Notes under the pieces: generated by a model
Database searches by the model: none
What the model was told of the DNA's origin: nothing
Seen by the model: only the letters and a program-made list of their open reading frames with translations
Made by a program: the position numbers and the translations under genes
From: Antrodiella citrinella
Taxonomy: Eukaryota; Basidiomycota; Agaricomycetes; Polyporales; Steccherinaceae
Length of the DNA: 13,649 nucleotides
Reading direction: 5' to 3'
Assembly: GCA_004802725.1 (NCBI GenBank)
Contig: SGPM01000526.1
Location: 1 to 13,649, forward strand
Part shown: in pieces, positions 1-13,206 of the stretch
Position numbering within the stretch: the stretch's first letter is position 1
Layout of the letters: each line of letters begins with the position of its first letter

Positions 1-329
1 CAGTATGAGCTGTTGGCAATACCGGAGAGTCTAGAACCTGTACACCAGGCTTGTTGAGACCTGTATCTTCTAGCGTTCATACTGTTTGGAACGCACCTTC
101 CACATCTCATCGAGGACCACCTGAGCCTCTTCTGTGGAGGCCAAAGGTTGCTCGACATCGTCGGTACGACGCAGAGCAGTCGACATGAAGTGCGCTATCG
201 CCGACTCGGGTGGCTATCAGTTTTCAGTGTCAAAGCTGTGGTCGCGATATGAATGAGTAGTTTACTGACGGTTGTGATGGAAGAGTTGTTGGATCTTGGA
301 CTGGACGGAGTGCTAGCGTCCGAGTCCAT
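1..329 (-). CDS. 5' end of a protein-kinase-family gene, paralog of the kinase-WW-HECT gene (partial, runs off left edge)
   Basis: Inferred exons on the minus strand are 329-270, 213-97 and 37-1, with introns 269-214 (gtcagt..tag) and 96-38 (gtgcgt..cag). The first 71 residues or so match the N-terminus of the kinase-WW-HECT gene that starts at 9947 on the other strand. That includes ITT at the end of exon 1, SAIAHFMSTALRR in exon 2, and VLDSPVLPTAHT in exon 3. Exon 2 carries two extra codons (CCC GAG) relative to the other copy. Positions 1-204 are identical to the reverse complement of 10064-10267. The kinase core and any WW-HECT half would lie outside the window, so it cannot be said whether this copy is a plain kinase or also a chimera. 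The start at 329 is chosen because the ATG and its CAAC context are shared by both copies. Confidence 0.7.
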
Positions 330-801: not shown

Positions 802-3169
802 TTACTCCTTGACATCCGGGTCTTCCGTGGCAACAGAGGCACGTTGTCTCAACCCAGATGGACCGGCGGTGGAAGCGGGCTCGTCGGCAGCACGGAATGT
901 GTACTCAACGAGGCTTTCTCGGAGCCATTTGGACTGCGGGACAAAGTACCAACTCAAGACACCGAATATGGTAACAACACCAAGGATGACCGGTGCGAAG
1001 TTGAAGGTAGCCGCCGTGACGGGGAAGAAGAAAGGCGAAATTTGAGTCTAGATCAGGGCAAATGATGAGCAAACATCCTATGCAGGTTATATGATGACGC
1101 CACTCACAGCAAGGATCAGTCCGTTGAACAGGATAGCGGCAATGTACATTGGCTTCCGCCATCTTCCCAGGTAGAAATGAGACGATTTGAAATCGTCCGG
1201 AGTCATCGTCAACCTTAACAAGGCGATGAGACCGTATGCGGCAGTCGTAGGTATTCCTCCAGCGGAGATGAGAGAGGTGAATGCGACTTGAGAAGGAATA
1301 ATGGTGCACAAGAGGCATGCACCAAAGATGAACATGATCGTGACAGCGTTCTTGGGCTGTTTGTTCGAATCGACCTGGCCAATCCATCTCGACATCGGGA
1401 GAACACCATCACGAGCGACGGCATAGATGAGACGGGAAGCAGCTACGATAGCGACACTGGTGCTCTGAAATGCATATTAGCCTATGGTGCAACTCTCAAC
1501 GATATCGTCACGTACCAAAATAAGGCCAAGAACAGCGATGATCGTCATGAAAATGCTGGGACCTTTGCCCAAGGCCAGCGCATAGATCTGGACGAAAGGC
1601 TGAGGTGCATCCAAGGCGAAGAATACGTCCAGATCTGGAGTGCAGAATAGGAACAGGATGGTCGTAGCGAAACCGAGGACACCAGTAGCGACCACACTGG
1701 TGATGATCCCACGGCCAGCGACCACACTGGCATTCTTCGTTTCCTCTGCAATGTGACCAGAGGCATCAAACCCGATCATGGTACCGGCGGAGAACAGGAA
1801 GGAAAGAATCCAGTTCCACGCTGCGGGAGCACCGGTTCCGTTATCTAGAGAGCACAATAAGTTTCCGGTAGATGCATTCAAACGACATCTTAAACATACA
1901 GGACATGGTGAAGACATCTTTCGCAGAGCGGAAACCGTACGTCCTGGAGACGCCGATGGGGAGCCAGATCACGCAAAGCAAGAAGTCGAGTATATACAAC
2001 CCGACAGAAATTCGGAAAATCCTGGAGTACCACCGGGGAGGTATATAGTTGATAGCGATAGCGCAGCAGAGGATGCCCTCCGAGATCGCCCAAATGACGG
2101 CTCTCCATTTGACGTTGTCGTAAGTGGTGCCTCCGGGGAAATCAATGTCCCATACCGAAATCTCCGACACGATATAATTGGCGGCAGTCTACGATAACGA
2201 CACAACATCAGCTTTGTTTACACATGGACAAATGATGTCTTACCTGACAATTACCAGCAGCGAAGGTCATCCAGGCTGTGCAGGACCACCAGGCTACGAT
2301 GAAACCGAAGAATCGGCCGTACTTAGGCCCAGCACTTTCAGCGGCCCAGATATAAATGGAACCGCTGATAGGCAGGGCAGAGCAAATCTCGGCCAGAACC
2401 ACGGCTGTGATGAACATGAAGATCATCGAGATGATGTAAGTTGACCTGCCAATTTGCATGAGATACGCCGTGTGCTGAGTTTTGTATATACCAACCACAC
2501 TGCCATAGGACCGCCAGCGAGAAGACCCAAGAATATGCCGGCTCTAGAAGCGCGGAGTGAGTGGTTATAAATTACGCTTGAAACCCACAGCACGGACCTG
2601 ACACCTCCAATGAAGTTGAGGGCGACGAAACTAGCAGCGAAACTCTCGAGGAGATGCCAGCTACGATGCAAAGTCTATGCGACAAGACATGGAGTCAGTA
2701 ACGGGTATAACAAATCTATTATACGAAAGGCCTTACTGGCTTGTAACCTAATTTTCGCTAAAGAAAAACATCAGTACGCTGCTACCAGTCCCTCATGAGG
2801 GGCGAGTAATAAAGGCTACACTGGGGGCTTCCCTACGCAGGTCTCAGCGCTGATCAGGTTCGAACGGTATACTCTCAATCCCTATGCTCTCCTCTGCACG
2901 CTCGACAGAACCGACGACCCAACTTCGGATACGGTCGACAAAGCGAGAGATACAGTCTCAAAACACAAGGATACCCGTAGCCTTGTCCAGTTCACCACTA
3001 GAAACGGACGTTACCGATGGTAAAGTCCCACAGCCGCCATTCAACACCGCATAAGTTGGTCCCCCTTCAGCATGTCCTATGCTATTACCAGCTGGAGTTC
3101 ATCTTCGTCGAGGATGGAACCATTCTCGGAGTCACCCTTGACAGAGTTTGAGGCGTCTTCTTCTTGCAT
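802..3169 (-). CDS. APC-family amino acid / GABA permease (fungal Uga4-like type), complete, 9 exons
   Basis: Exons on the minus strand: 3169-3089, 2757-2737, 2674-2598, 2543-2496, 2445-2244, 2188-1900, 1844-1516, 1464-1108, 1047-802. They total 1650 nt, giving 549 residues and TAA at 802-804. It is a plasma-membrane or organelle transporter that moves amino acids or GABA across the membrane, with about 12 membrane segments expected. Family signatures in order: an acidic N-terminus ending EDELQL; LGYKP (30-34); the first membrane region with ALNFIGGVR and GLLAGGP; SALPISGSIYIWAAESAG; GFIVAWWSCTAW; FDASGHIAEETKNAS; SRLIYAVARDGVLP; and a hydrophilic tail ending in DPDVKE. The start is chosen because ATG 3169 lies 96 bp behind a TATATAA box and gives the acidic N-terminus typical of the group. 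The first intron is 331 bp whereas the others are 50-62 bp, and exon 2 is only 21 nt. Substrate cannot be read from the sequence. Confidence 0.9.
2758..3088 (-). other. Unusually long first intron (331 bp) of the permease gene
   Basis: The donor is gtaata just after the codon for Leu27 and the acceptor is ctttag before the 21-nt exon 2, with a branch-like ctgat nearby. All other introns of this gene are 50-62 bp. Stop codons interrupt the frame reading through it, and I could not find a convincing extra coding exon inside. It contains two perfect palindromes, a 12-bp one at 2790-2801 and a 10-bp one at 2844-2853. It may hide an alternative first exon, a regulatory element or a small insertion. 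Confidence 0.6.
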
Positions 3170-3264
3170 GACGGAGGCTTTAAAGGAAAGAAGGCCTTTG
3201 CAGGCGTTGAGACGGTTGAGTAGAGAGGAGAAAGAGGGCGAAGAAGGAACGAAAATTTCCCGGG

Positions 3265-3271
3265 TTATATA
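3265..3271 (-). promoter_or_regulatory. TATA box of the permease gene
   Basis: The minus strand reads TATATAA here, 96 bp upstream of the chosen permease ATG at 3169. That leaves room for a leader of roughly 50-70 bases. No equally good TATA box is seen for the methyltransferase on the plus strand. Confidence 0.6.
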
Positions 3272-3286
3272 GGTCTCCGTTATCGC

Positions 3287-3331
3287 ACGCGTACGAGCGC
3301 TAGTAGTTGTTTTTGCCACGCGTATGAGCGT
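3287..3331. promoter_or_regulatory. Pair of ACGCGT (MluI cell-cycle box-like) elements in direct repeat
   Basis: ACGCGT occurs at 3287-3292 and 3318-3323, each followed by AyGAGCG, so a 13-base unit is repeated 31 bp apart. ACGCGT is the core of the MCB element bound by the MBF complex at G1/S in yeasts. Binding here is inference only. Either divergent gene could be controlled. Confidence 0.4.
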
Positions 3332-3472
3332 CTAATGGCATGCATCTCCTCCTCGAGCTCTTTGTTACTGTATAACTCTTGTCATTGTCTCGTCCCGTTC
3401 CGTTCCACTTTACTTAACTCTCGTATAATCTGTTGGATACATCTTGCTCTGGCTGTACGTTTTACTTCTCAC

Positions 3473-5665
3473 ATGCCTGCGTTTGATCCCGTTCGAGATG
3501 CCGTCCTCAACTCTCCAATCACACAAACAAGGCCACTTCCTTCCAGGATACACCTCGACCTCTCCTCGCTCTCCAATGGACCAAATCCATCGCCCACAGG
3601 CTCGGACTCGGCCATATTGACTGCCAGTCCACTTACTCGCAGAGCCACCGACCTTTCCATGCTTCTCAATTCCGATTCCGTAGAGCCTTCCTCCATGGGT
3701 ACACCACTCTTCACACCTACTACACCTCGCGCACCCATCAACTTCTCGCATCTCCTTCACAATGACTCACCATCCTATCCCAACGAGGACGCGCTCAGCC
3801 ACGCTACCCCGCTGCGGAGGCGATCGTCCGCAGAATCGTCCTCCTACTTTCCTCAAACCGAATTCAGTGGTCGTGCCTTCGGCTCTGTCCCTCCTCTCAC
3901 ACCAAGTCCTCTTCCGTTCCCTGTCAGTTCACCATCCCCATCAGGCCCGTCGCGACCTGCGACGTCCGGATCCAACGCATCTCGCCCGTCTGCATCCCCT
4001 CCCACTGCGAAACAACTTCTGCCAAAGCGACCACATTCACCGAAAGAGATGCCCCCGCCTCCAGTGCCAACTCAGTTGTCCGTGCTGCCTCGACCACAAT
4101 CGCCGCCTCGAAAATCTAATATTCCGTACGCACCACGGCGCCGTATATCAGCACCCGCGTCTGTTCTGAAGCCTCTCACTCCAGCTGAGATTGAGTGGTA
4201 CAAGAACTATCCGGGAGGTATAGGCTCGCAGGTTTTGAAGAGCAAGCGGAAACGCGCAGACTCTCAGGAGGCGGATGCCGACGGCCCGCCCTCCAAGAAA
4301 GCCAAAGACGTCAAATTGGTGGCGGAGCACTGTCAGTGATCTCAGACCTTTTTCTGCTGTGGCGAGCACTTATCCGTACACACCAGACAACGCGCGTCCA
4401 GAGGTTGGTGTGCAACAACGGAATGAATCACCAATCATTGGTTTGAAGAACTTCAACAATTGGGTGAAAAGCGTATTGATTTCGCAATTCGCGCATCCCG
4501 TGTTGGCTGAGAGTCCCAACTCCGGCCCCTATGCGCAGACGGGACCCGTCAGCATGCGAGCTCGTCCAATGGGTCGAGGTGCTGGCAAGGTGCTAGACAT
4601 GGGTTGTGGCAAAGGTGGCGATTTGACGAAATGGGCGAAGGCGCGGATTAAAGAATACATCGGTGTCGGTGAGTTGCATGTGTTCTATGGCAGGCGTCAG
4701 GACTGACGCTTATATGTCAGATATTGCCGCTGTCTCTGTTGACCAGGCGCGTGAACGCTATAGTACACTACGAGGTCCAAAATTCTCTGCTGCCTTCGCT
4801 GCCGCGGACTGTTACACCCAGCTGTTATCCGCCAGTTTACCTCCGTCCATGACGCAGAGCATCCTACCACCTCATGGGCAGCCATTTGACGTCGTGTCGA
4901 TGCAATTTTGCATGCATTATGCTTTTGAGAGCGAGTATAAGACTAGGACCATGCTTCAAAATGTAAGCAATTGGCTCAGACCAGGCGGTGTGTTCGTGGG
5001 TACGGTGCCGAATGGTGCACAGCTTCTGTGAGTTGCACCATGTTATTTGCATGTCTCTGACATCTGATACCCCTGCCTCCTTCAGAGAGCGGTTGAATGG
5101 CATACCTGCGAATGCCAGTGAACTTTCCTTCGGCAACGATGTCTACACAATTCGGTTCGATGAGCGCGTACATCATGGTGTATATGGACATCGATATTCT
5201 TTCTATCTCAAGGACGCGGTGGACGATGTTCCTGAGTACGTCGTACATTGGGATCATTTCTTAACGTGAGTAGCGATGCTATACAGGATGAAAATAGCCT
5301 GATTATACTCCGTATCAGGACAGCGGCAGAGTATGGCTTGCACGTCAAATACAAGAAGGAGTTTCACCAGGTTTTTGCTGACAATCAAGAGCATGCCGAC
5401 TTCGGACCGTTGTTGCAGCGTATGAGGGTGGTCGACGGCAATGGTGAAAGCCATATGGACGAAGACCAGTGGGAAGCAGCCAGTGAGTGTCTGCTTACGT
5501 CTCCCAGCGTCCGTAGTCGCAGTAGTACGCCGGTACATGTCGTTATTCCATGTATCGGTATCGTCATCCTTTTGTCTTCTGGGCTCACATCGTCCTTCTG
5601 CGCATCGCTGACAATATCTCTTCCTCATAGACATATACATCGCATTTGCTTTTGAGAAGCGGTGA
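3473..5665 (+). CDS. ABD1: mRNA cap guanine-N7 methyltransferase (Abd1/RNMT type), complete, 6 exons
   Basis: Exons: 3473-4331, 4387-4668, 4721-5027, 5086-5265, 5319-5482, 5631-5665, giving 608 residues. The enzyme transfers a methyl group from S-adenosylmethionine to N7 of the guanosine cap on nascent mRNA in the nucleus. Residues 1-286 are a Ser/Pro-rich low-complexity region ending with a likely nuclear localisation signal (KSKRKR at 256 and SKKAK near 276). The catalytic domain begins with VAEHYNARPE and the family motif SPIIGLKNFNNWVK. It continues with the SAM-binding loop VLDMGCGKGGDL (355-366), then EYIGVDIA, FDVVSMQFCMHYAFES (cap/SAM pocket), LRPGGVFVGTVPNG, and the conserved C-terminal IYIAFAFEKR. 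Yeast Abd1 is 436 residues, so the extra length is the N-terminus. The start at 3473 begins MPAFDPVRDAV. The last intron (5483-5630, 148 bp) is longer than the others. Confidence 0.95.
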
Positions 5666-6090
5666 CATGACACCGCTCCGGGCATCCTCTTCTGACCGAT
5701 GAAAAACTCGGGCGAGATTATGGTTGGGTGCTACAGTGTTCCACGGGTGATTGAGGAAGTACGATTAGCCTTCCAACGTAACCTGTGAACATGTACGAAT
5801 TGGATACCAATTGCACTGGACGCTGTAACATAGCTCTGAGGTGTGAGTACCTCCGGTTTCGTACGAAGGAATCCGAAAGAAGACCGGGCCGACGGCGCGT
5901 TGGCGTGAGAATATGTACAAACGCCCGGCAAGAGGCGCAGTCAGTATAGGCGCTAAAGTCGTTGACGATCCCTCTCTCATTGTCAAAACGTCTCTCCTCG
6001 TCGTTGCCCTCGATAGCGACACTACTGTCGCCGTCCCAGCCGCATTTCAGAAGGCCTTGCTTCCTTTCAGTCCGTCAGTTCGGCTCAGCC
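5666..6090. other. Intergenic region: 3' end of cap methyltransferase and promoter/leader of RSP5
   Basis: No coding exon is supported in these 425 bp. Open frames present are short and lack recognisable domains. The last 100 bases or so before the RSP5 start are pyrimidine-rich on the plus strand, as expected for a fungal leader, and contain several tttcag-like sites, so a 5' leader intron is possible. No clear TATA box was found. Confidence 0.5.
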
Positions 6091-9075
6091 ATGTCGGCTG
6101 CTCCCAGCGCACAGTATGTCCCCTCTCATAATCTCATTAGTAAGATGATTCCCAACATTGTTCGCTCCTTCCCCCTCGTCCTCGCAGGAAGAAGATTAGG
6201 ATTACCGGTATGTTCTACTATGCTCTTTGCGAGGGCGTCATCACTGACCGCTCTGGTCCATTCGTAGTGGTCGCTGCCGATGGTCTCTCCAAGCGCGAAG
6301 TGTTCCGCCTTCCGGACCCGTTTGCTGTAATCACCGTCGATGCGGAGCAGACCCATACTACTAGTGTTATCAAGAAGACCTTGAACCCATACTGGAACGA
6401 AAGCTTTGATATGTGTGTACACTTTCGGGCTCGCCCTTGTACTCGATCTAGTATTCATGCGTGTTGCCACAGTACCGTGAAGGACTCGTCTGTCATTGCG
6501 GTGCAGATATTTGACCAGAAGAAGTTCAAGAGGAGGGATCAGGGTTTTTTGGGTGTGGTCAACGTTCGTGTGAGCGACGTGATAGACTTGGATTTGGGTG
6601 GTCATGGTGCGTCCTCTCATTTTCACAATCACACTTGATCTAACTTGTGACCTCAGAGATGCTTACTCTGGACCTTAAGAAGTCCAACGACAACCTCGTC
6701 GTTCACGGGAAGCTTATCATATACCTCTCAACGAATATCAGTCAACCTATCAACAACCCAACTGGCTCTCCTGCTGCAGACGGATCTGTTGTAGACAACG
6801 CCAGCTCCGCCAATCTCGCTGCCAGTAACAGCAACCTCTCTCGTACGCCTTCACACAATACAGGTGCCGCTGACAATGCGAGCGTCCACGTTACTATGCC
6901 TACCCCTAGCGCAACCCCTGCTGCTGCGACCGTTCCGTCGCCCGAACCACAAGCACCAATCTCGGCGTCTAATCCCACGCGACCAGTTTCTTCCGGCAGT
7001 GCAGTCTCCCCCTCCGCTCAGACCCAAGCACCCACCACCTCCGCCGGTGCGAACGCACAAGCGGCGTCTAACAACAACGCTCAGATGCGCAACTTCAACC
7101 CTCACGAAGACCAATATGGTCCCCTTCCCGGAGGGTGGGAGCGCAGGATCGACCCGCTTGGTCGTACATACTACGTAGATCACAACACTCGCAGCACGAC
7201 ATGGAACCGGCCATCGGCAAGTCAGACTGTCAACACCAACGCCCAGGATGGCGAGACGAATGCCGCTCGCGATCAGCACAATCGTCGTATTTTGGCCGAC
7301 GACATGTTGGAAGCAAACAACTCTGGCAACGTGACCCGTGCGCCCTCAACTGCGCCCCCCGCGGCCAACACCGCCGCAGCCGCTGTGATGGCAAGCGGCA
7401 ATGTCACAACTTCTGGAGCTGGTCCTCTTCCCGCAGGATGGGAAGAGCGATACACCCCTGAAGGGCGACCTTACTATGTTGATCACAACACTAGGACGAC
7501 GACCTGGGTTGATCCCCGCCGGCAGACTGTTATCCGCGTTATGGGTCCCAACGGGCAAAACGCCGCTCTCCAGCCCCAGACTATTTCTCAGCTGGGTCCT
7601 CTTCCCTCAGGATGGGAGATGCGTCTCACTTCAACCGCTCGGGTTTACTTCGTGGATCACAACACGAAGACGACTACTTGGGACGATCCTCGCCTGCCCT
7701 CGACTCTGGATGCGAACGTGCCTCAATACAAACGTGACTTCCGAAGGAAGCTCATCTACTTCAGGAGTCAGCCCGCCATGCGTGCTCAGCCTGGAAACTG
7801 CCAGGTTAAAGTTCGCCGTAATCATATCTTCGAGGACAGTTATGCAGAAATCATGAGACAGACACCGAATGATCTGAAGAAGCGTCTCATGATTAAGTTC
7901 GACGGAGAGGACGGTCTTGATTATGGAGGTCTTTCCAGGTACGTTTTAATACTTTTCGGAGGGTTCGTAGTACTGACTAATAGCTTAGGGAGTTCTTCTT
8001 CCTGCTCTCGCATGAGATGTTCAACCCATTCTACTGTCTCTTCGAGTATTCGGCACATGACAACTACACCCTGCAGATTAACCCTGCATCTGGTGTTAAC
8101 CCTGAGCACTTGAACTACTTCAAGTTCATTGGTCGTTGCCTAGGCCTTGGTATTTTCCACCGCAGGTTCTTGGACGCGTACTTCATTACCGCGTTCTACA
8201 AGATGATTCTGAAGAAGAAGGTCACTCTCGCTGACTTGGAGAGTGTCGACGCTGAACTGCATCGCGGTTTGACTTGGATGCTGTGCGTAGTGCCTTCGTG
8301 CTTTGTTCGACGAAAAGAATATTCACCCTCATTGCAGTGACAATGATATCACGGATGTCATCGACGAGACCTTTACCACCACCGAGGAGCGATTCGGTGA
8401 GATGGTGACTGTTGAGCTCAAGCCCGGAGGTGGCGACGAGCCGGTCACAGAAGATAACAAGAAGGAGTATGTCAACTGTGTGGTGGAGTACCGTATCAGC
8501 AAGCGTGTCAAGGAGCAGTTCGACGCTTTCATGTCTGGCTTCAGCGAGCTCATCCCGCAGGAGCTCGTCAATGTCTTCGACGAGCGCGAGTTGGAGCTGT
8601 TGATTGGTGGTATGTCCGAGATTGATGTGTACGTGTCTCACTTCATACTCGAAGCGCATATGCTAATCTGCATGATTTAGCGATGACTGGAGCAAGTTCA
8701 CCGACTATCGTGGCTACGAAGTCAACGACGAAGTCATTCAATGGTTCTGGCAGTGCATTCGCAGCTGGCCACCTGAACGCAAGTCTCGTCTGCTTCAGTT
8801 CGCGACTGGCACGTCTCGTATTCCCGTCAACGGGTTCAAGGATCTCCAGGGCTCCGATGGTCCCAGAAGATTCACTATTGAGAAGTCTGGTGACCCAAGC
8901 CAACTACCAAAGAGTCATACATGCTTCAACCGCATTGACTTGCCACCGTACAAGGATTATAACACGTTAGAGCAGAAGTTGACGTTGGCGGTAGAGTGCG
9001 TATGGTTTTCTTTGGTCTCCGTATTATGCTGATCTGCTTCGCTACAGGGAAACTGTTGGCTTCGGTCAAGAGTAA
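6091..9075 (+). CDS. RSP5: Rsp5/NEDD4-type HECT E3 ubiquitin ligase (C2-WW-WW-WW-HECT), complete, 9 exons
   Basis: Exons: 6091-6113, 6188-6207 (a 20-nt micro-exon), 6268-6412, 6473-6606, 6657-7938, 7989-8282, 8338-8628, 8681-8995, 9048-9075; 843 residues. The ligase attaches ubiquitin to membrane proteins and other substrates, many recruited through PPxY-bearing adaptors. An N-terminal C2 domain (about 10-125; [35 protein letters not shown]) binds phospholipids. A Ser/Ala/Pro/Thr-rich linker follows. The WW domains start with GPLP at 262, 363 and 421. The HECT domain fills about 500-843, with [14 protein letters not shown] and the catalytic Cys in [11 protein letters not shown] at residue 811. 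Thirty-two residues follow the Cys, the same as in yeast Rsp5 (C777 of 809). It ends ETVGFGQE with the -4 Phe. It is the evident parent of the WW-HECT half of the gene at 9947-13206. Confidence 0.97.
7595..9075 (+). repeat. WW3-HECT segment of RSP5, parent copy of a direct duplication (partner 11805-13206)
   Basis: From the GPLP of WW3 to the C-terminus the protein aligns almost without gaps to the WW-HECT part of the downstream chimera, with a single one-codon insertion near SGVNPEH. The three introns inside the aligned HECT region (7939-7988, 8283-8337, 8629-8680) sit at the same codons and phases as those of the partner (12146-12194, 12492-12546, 12838-12884). The last RSP5 intron (8996-9047) has no counterpart. 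Confidence 0.9.
8922..8924 (+). other. RSP5: Catalytic cysteine codon of the RSP5 HECT domain (Cys811)
   Basis: TGC lies in the context [13 protein letters not shown], which matches the conserved thioester-forming cysteine of the HECT C-lobe. It is the reference point for the Cys-to-His change in the neighbouring chimera at 13126-13128. Confidence 0.95.
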
Positions 9076-9878: not shown

Positions 9879-10267
9879 TTTGGGGCATGATTATAACGAT
9901 AAAAACAATATACTGATAGCGAGCAACGTCGCTACTATTCTTCAACATGGACACTAGCAATCCGCCCAATCCAGGATTCAACAACTCTGCCCACAGAGTC
10001 ACAACTGTTGGTACACTACTCATTTCACAGTGTCCAACCTTTGACGCTATATATTGACAGCCATCGGCGATAGCGCACTTCATGTCGACTGCTCTGCGTC
10101 GTACCGACGATGTCGAGCAACCTTTGGCCTCCACAGAAGAGGCTCAGGTGGTCCTCGATGAGATGTGGAAGGTGCGTTCCAAACAGTATGAACGCTAGAA
10201 GATACAGGTCTCAACAAGCCTGGTGTACAGGTTCTAGACTCTCCGGTATTGCCAACAGCTCATACTG
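9620..10267. repeat. Right arm of the inverted duplication (partner 1-645)
   Basis: The reverse complement matches 1-645. Positions 10064-10267 are a perfect 204-bp match that covers most of exon 2, the whole 59-bp intron 2 and the first 37 bases of exon 3 of the kinase chimera. Upstream, exon 1 and intron 1 are only partly similar (a 6-bp indel at the start of exon 2, many substitutions). Farther out, a 20-bp exact match sits at 9620-9639. Confidence 0.85.
9879..9946. promoter_or_regulatory. Very short divergent promoter between the small gene (-) and the kinase chimera (+)
   Basis: Only 68 bp separate the two proposed start codons. The stretch is A/T-rich around 9895-9915 (ataaaaacaatatactg), the best candidate for a TATA-like element on the plus strand. 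The part adjoining the kinase ATG (gagcaacgtcg..ttcaac) is conserved in the inverted copy near 330-355. Confidence 0.4.
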
Positions 10268-13206
10268 GTGGATCTCCGTTCTTCGTCTATCGAAATTCAC
10301 TCCGGAAGCTCTGCCTCAAAGTGGCTATCAGGCATGACATACTGCCTACCGCGCTCATTCTCAAAGAGGTGCATGTAATAGAGGGGATCGAGTGCGGTGG
10401 TGGTGGTTTTGCAGACGTGTATTGCGGCACGTTCCGTGGAGAGAAAGTCGCTCTCAAGCGGCTTCGTATTTATCTCATGTCTTCGCAAATACAAAAGCAA
10501 GAAATCAAGAAGGTTGGTCATGTAGTCCTTGTTTCCGAATCATTTCGATGCTGAAAGACAAATTCCTTCGTAGGCATTTTGCCGCGAATCGATACTGTGG
10601 AAGAACCTGGTGCACGACCATATACTTCCGTTCCTGGGGGTTGCGGAAGATGCGTTCAAAGGTGCAATCTGCATGGTGTTGCCCTGGCAAGAGCGGGGTA
10701 GTCTTCGACACTACCTTGAGGCTCAGAAGCAGGTCGAGGAGATGAGTGACGAGCAGATCGCGTTGGCTGTGGATCGATGGGTACGTTGCAGTCATCGCAT
10801 GACTCGCAGTGCTAGTCCCCTAACGACACCGTATAGCTCTATAGCTCTATCAGACCGGTCTTGGTTTGGAGTATCTACACGAGGAAGGGATCGTCCACGG
10901 CGATTTGCACGCAGGCAATATTCTCGTCGACGACGTCGGCAACGCACGTCTCACTGACTTCGGCATGGCGCTGATCGCTGAAGCTAATGAGTACAACTAT
11001 GGTTCTATTCACGGAGGAGGCGCGACTCGTTGGCAAGCTCCGGAGCTCATAGACCCCGAGGAGTTTGGGCTGACGTCGAGGCGACCAACGAAGCAGAGCG
11101 ACATGTTCTCGTTCGCATGCACGGCTATAGAGGTGCGCTTCTTGTATGTATGAGTCGAGTCTATGTCTGACATGCATTTCCCGAATGGGCAGCTTTACAC
11201 CGGCAAGCCACCATTTCCCGATATCACCAACCACAAAGTATCCGTTCGGTACGTGAGCGGCGACAGGCCGCCCAGGCCCTCTCTTCCTGCTGGAACATTC
11301 ATGTCCGATGCGGTGTGGACGTTGATGGATTCGTGTTGGGCGCACCGGATTTTGGCGCGCCCTCCTGTCCAGCAGGTTGTTGTCGAGCTCGCAGCAGTCA
11401 CAGCGGGTGTTTCGAACTCGGAACGATTGGCGGCAAGCCTAAGTGCAATCCGAATCACAGCTCGAGCTTCGGAGCCAAGTGTCACTCAGAGTTTACCCCG
11501 GGTCCGTCACGAGATTCCTCCTTTGTCGCGTAGTACCACACATCCCGCCGTCCTCGCATCTGCTGAAATGTTTGACTCGCGCACTCTCAGCTGGGAGCCT
11601 GAGCATTACCATAGTATTGCCACCAATCCGATATCGCAAATATCTCCGGCGGCAAGACCAGGCGTAGCAGCCGTGAAGAATGGCACCACGGCTTCAAATA
11701 TTGATCTCCTTGCCGACAGGGAAGGCCAGTTCTCTGATGCCAACGGTATGGCCTGTGGTGATCATGAATCTACCGCTTCTCAGTCTCGCCCTGGTGCTTC
11801 ACTGGGACCTCTTGCGGAACGATGGGAGATGCGTCACGACCGCACTGGTCGTACGTACTTCGTTGACCACAAGCTGAAGATAAGTTTCTGGGATGATCCT
11901 CGCCTGCTCGCTGAGGAAGGAAGCACGCCTGAATATCACCGTGACTTTCGACAAAAGCTTTTCTACCTCAGGAATCTGTCTGCGCTTCGTCCTCGGGCTG
12001 GAGACTGCCATGTGGAAGTCCGTCGTGAATTCATCTTTGAAGACAGTTACAGAGAGATCATGAAGTGGAAACCGGATGACCTGCAGAGACGTCTCATGAT
12101 CAAATTCAATGGCGAAGACAGTTTAGATTATGGAAGTCTTTCTAGGTAAGTCCTAATCCTGCTCAAGGTAAACAAACCGTGACAAATCGTTCAGAGAGTT
12201 ATTCTTCCTACTCTCGCAAGCGATCCCCAATCCGGCCTACTCTCTGTTACAATACTCCACGCCAAACAGACAGGATACCTTGCGGATTAACCCAACGTCT
12301 GGTGTCGATACCGAGCAGTTGAATCGTTTCAGGTTTATCGGACATTGTGTGGGCCTTGGAATCTTTCACCATAGATTTCTGAATGTCCGCTTTGTCGACC
12401 CATCGTACAAGATGATCTTGAAGAAGAACGTTAACCTCGTTGACTTGGAGAGCGTCGATCATGGCGCGTATCGCAAATTATCTTGGTTATTGTACGTACT
12501 CTCCCAATTCATTGCAAGCTCGCCTGACAGAAGTCTTGCTTCCCAGAAATAACGACGTTACGGATATTCTGGACGAGACATTCAGCGTTACCGAGGAGCA
12601 CCTCGGCAAGCAAGTCACACTCGATTTGAAACCAGGGGGTAGACATGTGGAACTCACAGAAGACAACAAACAAGAGTACATCGATCTCGTCGTGGAGTAT
12701 TATGTCTGCAAACGTATACAGCCACAGTTTGATGCCTTCATGTCCGGGCTCAACGACCTCATCCCGCAGGCTCTAATCGAAGTCTTTAATGAGGCCGACC
12801 TGGGGCTTTTGATTGAAGGAATCATCGAGCTCGATGTGTGCGTGTTTTGATTCCCTGATTTAAACTTTCAGATACGTGTACCAGCGACGACTGGATGAAA
12901 TTCACCGAATATCGTGGTTACAAAACCACTAATGATGTCGTTCAGTGGTTTTGGCGGTGCATCCGACATTGGTCGTCTGAGCGCAGATTGCGTCTGCTCC
13001 AGTTTGCAACTAGATCGTCTCGTATCCCCATGAACGGATTCAGGGCTCTTCAGGGCTCTGAAGGTCCTACAAGATGTACCATCGAGAAGTCTCTTGATCC
13101 AAGCCAGCCCCCGAAGAGTCGTCCCCACCTCAATAGCATTGAGTTGACACCATATGGGACTTACAGCATATTGGAACAGAACCTGCTGTCGGTTGTGTTG
13201 AATTAG
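9947..13206 (+). CDS. Chimeric protein: TKL-like protein kinase - WW - catalytically dead HECT domain, complete, 9 exons
   Basis: Exons: 9947-10006, 10061-10171, 10231-10512, 10574-10780, 10845-11132, 11193-12145, 12195-12491, 12547-12837, 12885-13206; 936 residues. The kinase (about 106-385) has a glycine loop GGGGFADVYCG (113-123), VALK lysine 133, likely helix-C Glu156, the HGDLHAGN catalytic loop with Asp240 and Asn245, DFG (258-260), APE (285-287) and SDMFSFA. It therefore looks active. A 135-residue linker without recognised domains follows. A WW domain (about 521-553) keeps both Trp residues (527, 549), YF and His542. The HECT domain (about 590-936) is clearly related to that of adjacent RSP5. 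Its catalytic Cys is His911, and the protein ends VVLN, lacking the RSP5 tail GFGQE. It may be a kinase targeted by Rsp5-like recognition, or a competitor of Rsp5; function is inference. ATG 10082 is an alternative in-frame start. Confidence 0.85.
10231..11350 (+). other. Kinase module of the chimera
   Basis: This stretch spans the kinase-coding part of exons 3 to 6. The order of motifs (G-loop, VALK, HGDLHAGN, DFG, APE, then DSCW and RPPVQQV near the end) is that of TKL-like kinases that are expanded in mushroom-forming fungi. The catalytic loop has HGD in place of HRD, as is frequent in that group. The aspartate and asparagine needed for catalysis and metal binding are retained. A second copy of this gene's 5' end is at 1-329. 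Confidence 0.8.
10837..10853 (+). other. Tandem candidate splice acceptors at intron 4 of the chimera
   Basis: A small direct repeat (tatagctctatagctctatcag) places AG acceptors at 10836, 10844 and 10853. Use of 10844 gives the family-like sequence RW-LYQTGLGLEYLHE. Use of 10853 would stay in frame and drop the residues LYQ, while 10836 would shift the frame. I chose 10844. Confidence 0.6.
11805..13206 (+). repeat. WW-HECT segment of the chimera, diverged duplicate of RSP5 7595-9075
   Basis: It begins GPLAERWEMR (RSP5: [10 protein letters not shown]) and runs to the C-terminus, with shared blocks such as YFVDH, WDDPRL, IFEDSY, RLMIKF, FIGxC, HRFL, MILKK, LESVD, TEDNK, EYxxx[17 protein letters not shown] and YRGY. 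The C2 domain, WW1, WW2 and the low-complexity linker of RSP5 are absent. Only the WW3-HECT part was captured downstream of a kinase. Confidence 0.9.
13126..13128 (+). other. HECT active-site position of the chimera: His911 in place of the catalytic Cys
   Basis: CAC occupies the position that is TGC in RSP5 (8922-8924). The flanks align without gaps: RSP5 [15 protein letters not shown] against PKSRPHLNSIELTPY here. Without the thioester-forming cysteine the HECT domain cannot carry ubiquitin by the known mechanism. Confidence 0.9.

Follow-up and report, generated by a model that had tools for sequence, protein, structure and literature searches.

Ubiquitin ligases of the Rsp5/NEDD4 group carry an N-terminal C2 domain, WW domains followed by a HECT domain, and a C-terminal tail with a conserved Phe. 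Protein kinases of the TKL type are expanded in Agaricomycetes, as reported for Laccaria (PMC2838846), and in wheat the kinase fusion proteins Lr9 and Sr43 have been hypothesised to work by a decoy logic (PMC10260399). The gene described here, EUX98_g8727 of Antrodiella citrinella (Polyporales, Steccherinaceae), combines elements of these systems: a TKL-type kinase, a linker, a WW domain and a HECT domain in one frame. It lies at 9947..13206 on the plus strand of contig SGPM01000526.1 (assembly GCA_004802725.1), and the window of our analysis is this one whole contig of 13,649 bases. We refer to the gene as chimera 1, and to a second, partial copy (EUX98_g9549) as chimera 2. In both the HECT domain is predicted to be catalytically dead, and together they look like a constrained kinase-pseudoligase pair rather than genes in decay. 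The fungus is considered mycoparasitic on Fomitopsis pinicola, and its assembly was made with MIRA from single-end Ion Torrent reads (mean length 222 bases), with genes called by AUGUSTUS (PMC12878558).

A kinase, a WW domain and a HECT domain in one frame

Rebuilt as a spliced frame, chimera 1 comprises nine exons (9947-10006, 10061-10171, 10231-10512, 10574-10780, 10845-11132, 11193-12145, 12195-12491, 12547-12837 and 12885-13206) that encode 936 amino acids with a single, terminal stop. GT...AG borders are found at all eight introns, two of which have the unusual donor GTTGGT. A Pfam scan of a 909-aa version starting at 10082 finds three domains in order: PK_Tyr_Ser-Thr (3.2e-40); WW (1.9e-6, 28.2 bits against a cut-off of 26.9, the weakest of the three); and HECT (1.2e-67, profile positions 2-295 of 306). 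This bears out the original prediction of all three in one spliced frame of 936 codons. With hand-computed coordinates, all on the plus strand, the kinase domain spans 10393..11390 (introns included) and the WW domain 11814..11900; the HECT domain spans 12208..13191 over three exons, its end coordinate also computed by hand. The transition from kinase to ligase falls within exon 6 (11193..12145, plus strand), which reads in one open frame from the end of the kinase C-lobe through the linker and the WW domain into the start of the HECT domain, as had been claimed. Because this junction lies inside a single exon, the fusion is not merely two genes joined across an intron, and a read-through of that kind is ruled out, again in line with the first reading. 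The public model (P0001, EUX98_g8727, 833 aa) equals the rebuilt frame over its first 830 residues and then runs through the last intron to a stop, with loss of the remaining end of the HECT C-lobe.

The kinase half retains the motifs GGGGF, VALK, HGDLHAGN, DFG and APE, that is, a kinase fold of TKL type with the catalytic Lys, HxD, Asn, DFG and APE; judged from these motifs, its catalytic set is intact. Searched by sequence against the PDB, it matches EGFR, MET, ErbB4, SYK and B-Raf best. The family is represented by 177 exon-level matches (own exons counted) in 602 of the 1,228 published contigs (30 Mb), to which all our genome-wide counts refer. Intact motifs and a large family are what chimera 1 has in common with the expanded TKL-type kinases of Agaricomycetes; it differs from them by its WW-HECT half, the main text of PMC2838846 naming neither a HECT nor a WW domain. 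The linker, which is probably disordered in the chimeras, matched only itself when its 131 residues were searched against the same contigs.

Just upstream of chimera 1, at 6091..9075 (plus strand), lies a canonical Rsp5 of 843 aa with a C2 domain, three WW domains and a HECT domain with Cys and FGQE tail. The WW-HECT half of chimera 1 is 58% identical to it in protein (428 columns) and 67% in DNA, and three introns of the HECT part occupy the same codon positions in both genes when the exon tables are compared by eye. These matching introns point to a duplication at the DNA level, not to a retrocopy, and the Rsp5-type origin proposed earlier for this half is well founded. In all, the searched contigs hold five HECT genes: two in the window and one each on contigs C583, C11 and C17. 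Chimera 1 shares with the Rsp5/NEDD4 ligases (own Rsp5; yeast Rsp5, PDB 3olm and 4lcd) the order of WW and HECT, the HECT introns and the predicted fold. It differs from them by one WW domain instead of three, by the loss of Cys and tail, and by the kinase in front, which takes the place of the C2 domain; Pfam gives no C2 in chimera 1. The public model EUX98_g8726 (P0237, 1,373 aa; 3224-9075, plus strand) joins an mRNA cap methyltransferase to Rsp5, which looks like an annotation error since it leaves an Rsp5 intron unspliced and an ATG of Rsp5's own is present at 6091.

Of the 438 matches of a protein search, which scored the 7,994 candidates with the most words in common, the best 120 were listed. 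Kinase and HECT occur together in two of these 120 (P0001 and P0002, both from A. citrinella) and in no other species among them, in keeping with the initial statement that no established family of this architecture is known. No published kinase-HECT fusion was found in the literature, judged by titles and the beginnings of abstracts. Among the matches listed are kinase relatives from Cristinia and from Steccherinum ochraceum, a member of the same family with an ordinary Rsp5 (P0238). Eight S. ochraceum kinases, chosen partly for their listed domains, were scanned, and six of them (P0004, P0048, P0056, P0064, P0072 and P0073) have an extra domain: RPA3-like, Mcp5_PH, DM9, PhoD_2, ZZ or EH. These may reflect either a fusion-prone kinase family or artefacts of gene calling. 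P0003 of the same species has three kinase domains in tandem.

Catalytic site, ubiquitin surface and fold of the HECT half

In E6AP, F821A, a substitution adjoining the catalytic Cys, is strongly detrimental to thioester formation; H818A and T819A interfere with formation of the isopeptide bond, and chain elongation requires the tail (PMC6463701). Around the same site, Rsp5 reads KSHTCFNR and chimera 1 reads KSRPHLNS, so that RPHL stands for HTCF and His 911 (codon CAC, 13126..13128, plus strand) occupies the position of the catalytic Cys; chimera 2 has RVHQ, again with His for Cys. The frame of chimera 1 ends in VVLN and a stop (13192..13206, plus strand) where Rsp5 has ten residues (not shown), and that of chimera 2 in LVD and a stop, as against ETVGFGQE in the own Rsp5; the tail is missing from both. 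A look by eye, not a formal scan, revealed no hidden tail exon past 13200.

At the Cys position, which we take to be Cys 777 of yeast Rsp5, 316 HECT rows (chimera rows included) show 293 Cys, 9 W, 6 S, 6 gaps and 2 His, the last being chimera 1 and P0002. The truncated P0001 is among the gap rows; the other gap rows and eight of the nine W rows terminate at or just past the Cys position, which looks like the effect of missed introns, and the ninth W row (P0240) is misaligned, its letters showing HTCF. Ser is found in P0040 and in a group of five proteins whose ends are almost identical. P0040, a partial protein of 825 aa from Russula decolorans, is Rsp5-like and possibly another dead HECT paralogue: as in the chimeras its active site has no Cys (DTSF for HTCF) and its tail is lost, but it is a C2-WW-HECT protein with no kinase and with Ser in place of Cys, and it may be an effect of gene model or assembly. 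The other five (P0229, P0230, P0232, P0235 and P0236; 720 aa) have KRSFNR at the active site and keep the GFGQE tail; this may be a gene-model effect or another loss of Cys.

Because catalytic Cys and tail are gone in both copies, the HECT domain is not a normal ligase, and none is predicted to be left under either gene model of chimera 1. Here the original prediction, which spoke of a half-ligase, does not hold if a working one was meant; both the destroyed active site and the second chimera had escaped it. The strong Pfam score for HECT and the public name, HECT-type E3 ubiquitin transferase, would speak for a working kinase-ligase. Against them stand the change of Cys to His, the altered neighbours H, T and F and the missing tail, all in both copies, as well as the C-lobe end that is wholly missing from the public model; we reject an active HECT domain, which is exceedingly improbable. 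The public name misleads, since the truncated model hides the dead site.

Of the exosite residues described for yeast Rsp5 (PMC9282857), N513 and Y516 are retained in both chimeras, and V622 is retained as well; chimera 1 keeps Y521 and has a change at R651, with the opposite pattern in chimera 2. Both have Leu for F618, and Gln at the position of V621, where the own Rsp5 has Met. In yeast, F618A abolishes ubiquitin binding (PMC9282857); Leu may be milder than Ala. With these two changes in both copies, ubiquitin binding by the chimera HECT domains may be weak.

An AlphaFold model of P0002, built on an alignment of 38 sequences, has a mean predicted local distance difference test score (pLDDT) of 70.5 and a predicted template modelling score of 0.52. 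The WW domain and most of the HECT domain are fair to good; pLDDT falls below 50 across the linker (155-265), at the truncated beginning of the kinase (1-32) and in two brief segments within 620-632. The best PDB match of the model in Foldseek is Rsp5 (4lcd; E 1.7e-39, TM-score 0.71 by target). On this model, which is no independent proof of folding because HECT homologues in the alignment aid the fold, the HECT half is predicted to keep most of its fold.

A second chimera and the shared block

Chimera 2 is represented by P0002 (EUX98_g9549), a partial protein of 678 aa on a contig of 4,106 bases outside the 602 searched. By Pfam it holds the second half of the kinase, the linker, a WW domain (like chimera 1 it has a single one, here with 39.9 bits) and HECT. 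The protein matches chimera 1 at every one of 250 residues (249-498); from the WW domain on, identity is 62%. The left edge of the window (1..329, minus strand) carries the probable 5' end of a second chimera: exon 1 (329-270) is open and in frame, exon 2 is 213-97, and exon 3 runs from 37 off the contig. Positions 1-204 (minus) and 10064-10267 are the same DNA over 204 bases, intron included; upstream of these the two differ, the left copy agreeing at 115 of 139 aligned bases in the adjoining stretch, and a further match of 74 columns has 81% identity. The block common to both chimeras is 10064..11738 (plus strand), of which 10064-10267 is the same DNA and 10929-11738 the same protein; the middle of the block and the kinase N-lobe are represented by chimera 1 only. 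It is probable that the second chimera is inverted, with its 5' end at the left edge of the window and its 3' end in P0002. We infer an old pair of paralogues in which gene conversion made kinase and linker uniform; a collapse in the assembly could overstate the identity of the shared block. An amino-acid-permease-like gene (905-2543, minus strand), recognised by eye from its translation, separates the second kinase copy from the methyltransferase.

Since the reads are too short for a block of about 1.7 kb, the pairing of the 5' flanks with the HECT halves is ambiguous; under either pairing there are two kinase-WW-HECT genes. This also bears on the question whether the fusion is an artefact of assembly or gene models. 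Single-end reads of 222 bases, a MIRA assembly, ab initio genes and a contig that begins within a repeated block all invite that suspicion. However, kinase, linker and WW share one open exon, the fusion is seen again on another contig with a diverged HECT domain, and two fusions result whichever flanks are paired around the block; we regard an artefact as very improbable.

In the tree the two chimeras form one clade (support 100/100) with branch lengths of 0.71 and 0.47. They have 51 residues in common against the majority, 33 of which are absent from the 26 other tree proteins, and from these common residues the loss of Cys most likely predates the split of the two copies. In topology tests a clade of the chimeras with the A. 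citrinella Rsp5 was not rejected (p 0.099), nor was a Polyporales Rsp5 clade that leaves the chimeras out (p 0.52). Cerrena zonata P0141, a short WW-HECT protein with some residues common with the chimeras, was considered as an intermediate and set aside: it keeps HTCF and tail and has no kinase, and its N-terminus shows, by eye, C2-end and linker-like residues. Four short WW-HECT proteins (573-598 aa) from Hymenochaetales (P0029, P0135 and P0158) and Schizopora (P0036), with no listed C2 and with Cys kept, form a clade of their own (100/98) and are possibly an additional Rsp5 paralogue.

Apparent constraint on the HECT half and possible roles

Over 412 codons chimera 1 differs from Rsp5 by 166 amino acids, with a nonsynonymous rate (dN) of 0.27 and a synonymous rate (dS) of 1.21, the latter near saturation (4.2) in the middle third. 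Among 500 neutral simulations with an equal number of differences, the mean was 7.5 stops (range 1-16) and not one was free of stops; purely synonymous codon changes come to 110, where the simulations average 42. As Rsp5 hardly varies between species, nearly all amino-acid change falls on the chimera branch, whose own dN/dS therefore exceeds the pairwise 0.22 and is perhaps about 0.45 by our estimate. When columns are binned by conservation in 75 non-redundant reference rows, substitution drops with conservation: chimera 1 differs at 64% of the variable columns and at 23-25% of those in the top two bins, chimera 2 at 71% and 12-19%, respectively. Conservation reaches 98% or more in 84 columns: both chimeras keep 60 of them, one chimera has changed at 17, and both have changed at 7. 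Five of these seven fall within -6 to +3 of the Cys (for this window, picked post hoc, Fisher's test gives p 1.4e-5), whose own column (68/70) is outside the 84.

These figures bear on two other explanations. If a local duplication had fused a kinase with half an Rsp5, and the HECT part were now drifting, the chimeras would be decaying pseudogenes. The loss of catalytic site and tail, the long branches and the 24 of 84 strongly conserved columns altered in at least one copy fit this, as does the fact that the genes are known from sequence alone. We nonetheless think it unlikely: both copies are free of stops and frameshifts at about 40% amino-acid divergence, which no neutral simulation matched, and substitution falls as steeply towards the conserved columns as described above. 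The usual marks of a pseudogene (stops, frameshifts, no constraint) are absent from both sequences, and the pair looks constrained. If, on the other hand, only the kinase mattered, the WW-HECT half would be a passive tail kept open to avoid harming the kinase. Kinase and linker are indeed the same in both copies while WW and HECT differ, and the HECT branches are long; but family-conserved HECT residues are retained far beyond the needs of an inert tail and the WW domain is recognisable in both copies, which leaves this explanation a slim chance.

Several observations weigh against reading the two genes as a functional kinase-pseudoligase pair. The gene models are ab initio, and the reading rests on sequence and predicted fold. 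The last splice of chimera 1 (12838-12884) requires the second of two AG acceptors, the nearer giving a 34-base intron and a broken frame, and its WW domain barely clears the cut-off. Chimera 2 is known in its 3' part as protein, not as DNA, and the shared block exceeds the phasing reach of the reads. The replacements at F618 and V621 touch both copies, and the long branches and altered conserved columns mean that constraint is relaxed.

What the predicted proteins hold is a TKL-type kinase, a linker, an Rsp5-type WW domain and a HECT domain lacking Cys and tail. For activity, binding, targets and effect we infer the following. The WW domain, and perhaps the HECT N-lobe too, would dock the kinase on the PY-motif partners of Rsp5; the docked kinase would phosphorylate these partners, with the dead HECT domain present at them but transferring no ubiquitin; and the whole would act, through its kinase, to modulate or brake Rsp5. 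That the WW domain guides the kinase to Rsp5 substrates is plausible, and for the whole scheme, a pair of kinase-pseudoligase genes acting on Rsp5 partners, our confidence is tentative, somewhat short of even. A link with the mycoparasitism of F. pinicola is speculation.

The dead HECT domain might instead be a bait: as an integrated decoy of Rsp5 it would detect some factor that targets Rsp5, and the kinase would be the signalling output. A dead yet constrained copy of a central host protein on a kinase with intact motifs, a uniform kinase with a diverging appended part, and the extra domains on six of eight scanned S. ochraceum relatives would suit this idea, and a kinase joined to a copy of another protein's domain is what a decoy fusion consists of. 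Wheat Lr9 and Sr43 likewise join a kinase to an unrelated domain with a proposed decoy logic, but they are plant genes with other fused domains (PMC10260399), and the likeness drawn here is one of architecture. The attacking factor and the immune role would both be hypothetical, and the S. ochraceum domains may be gene-call artefacts in proteins partly chosen for them; we find the decoy doubtful. Equally doubtful, and argued from analogy, is a wider fungal counterpart in which expanded Steccherinaceae kinases would gain domains of the fungus's own proteins as bait, here an Rsp5 copy stripped of catalysis and retained in two paralogues, with the kinase as output; gene conversion would hold the kinase module uniform as the bait diversifies.

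WW-HECT proteins and TKL kinases are known kinds; the new element is an apparently constrained kinase-pseudoligase pair. If the reading is true, nature would here have produced a kinase-pseudo-HECT, in which an Rsp5 copy has given up catalysis, kept its fold and become tied to phosphorylation; it would be a testable case of the reuse of a ligase scaffold after ligation was lost. In expanded fungal kinase families one could look for the same pattern, a kinase module that stays uniform while the domain appended to it diverges.

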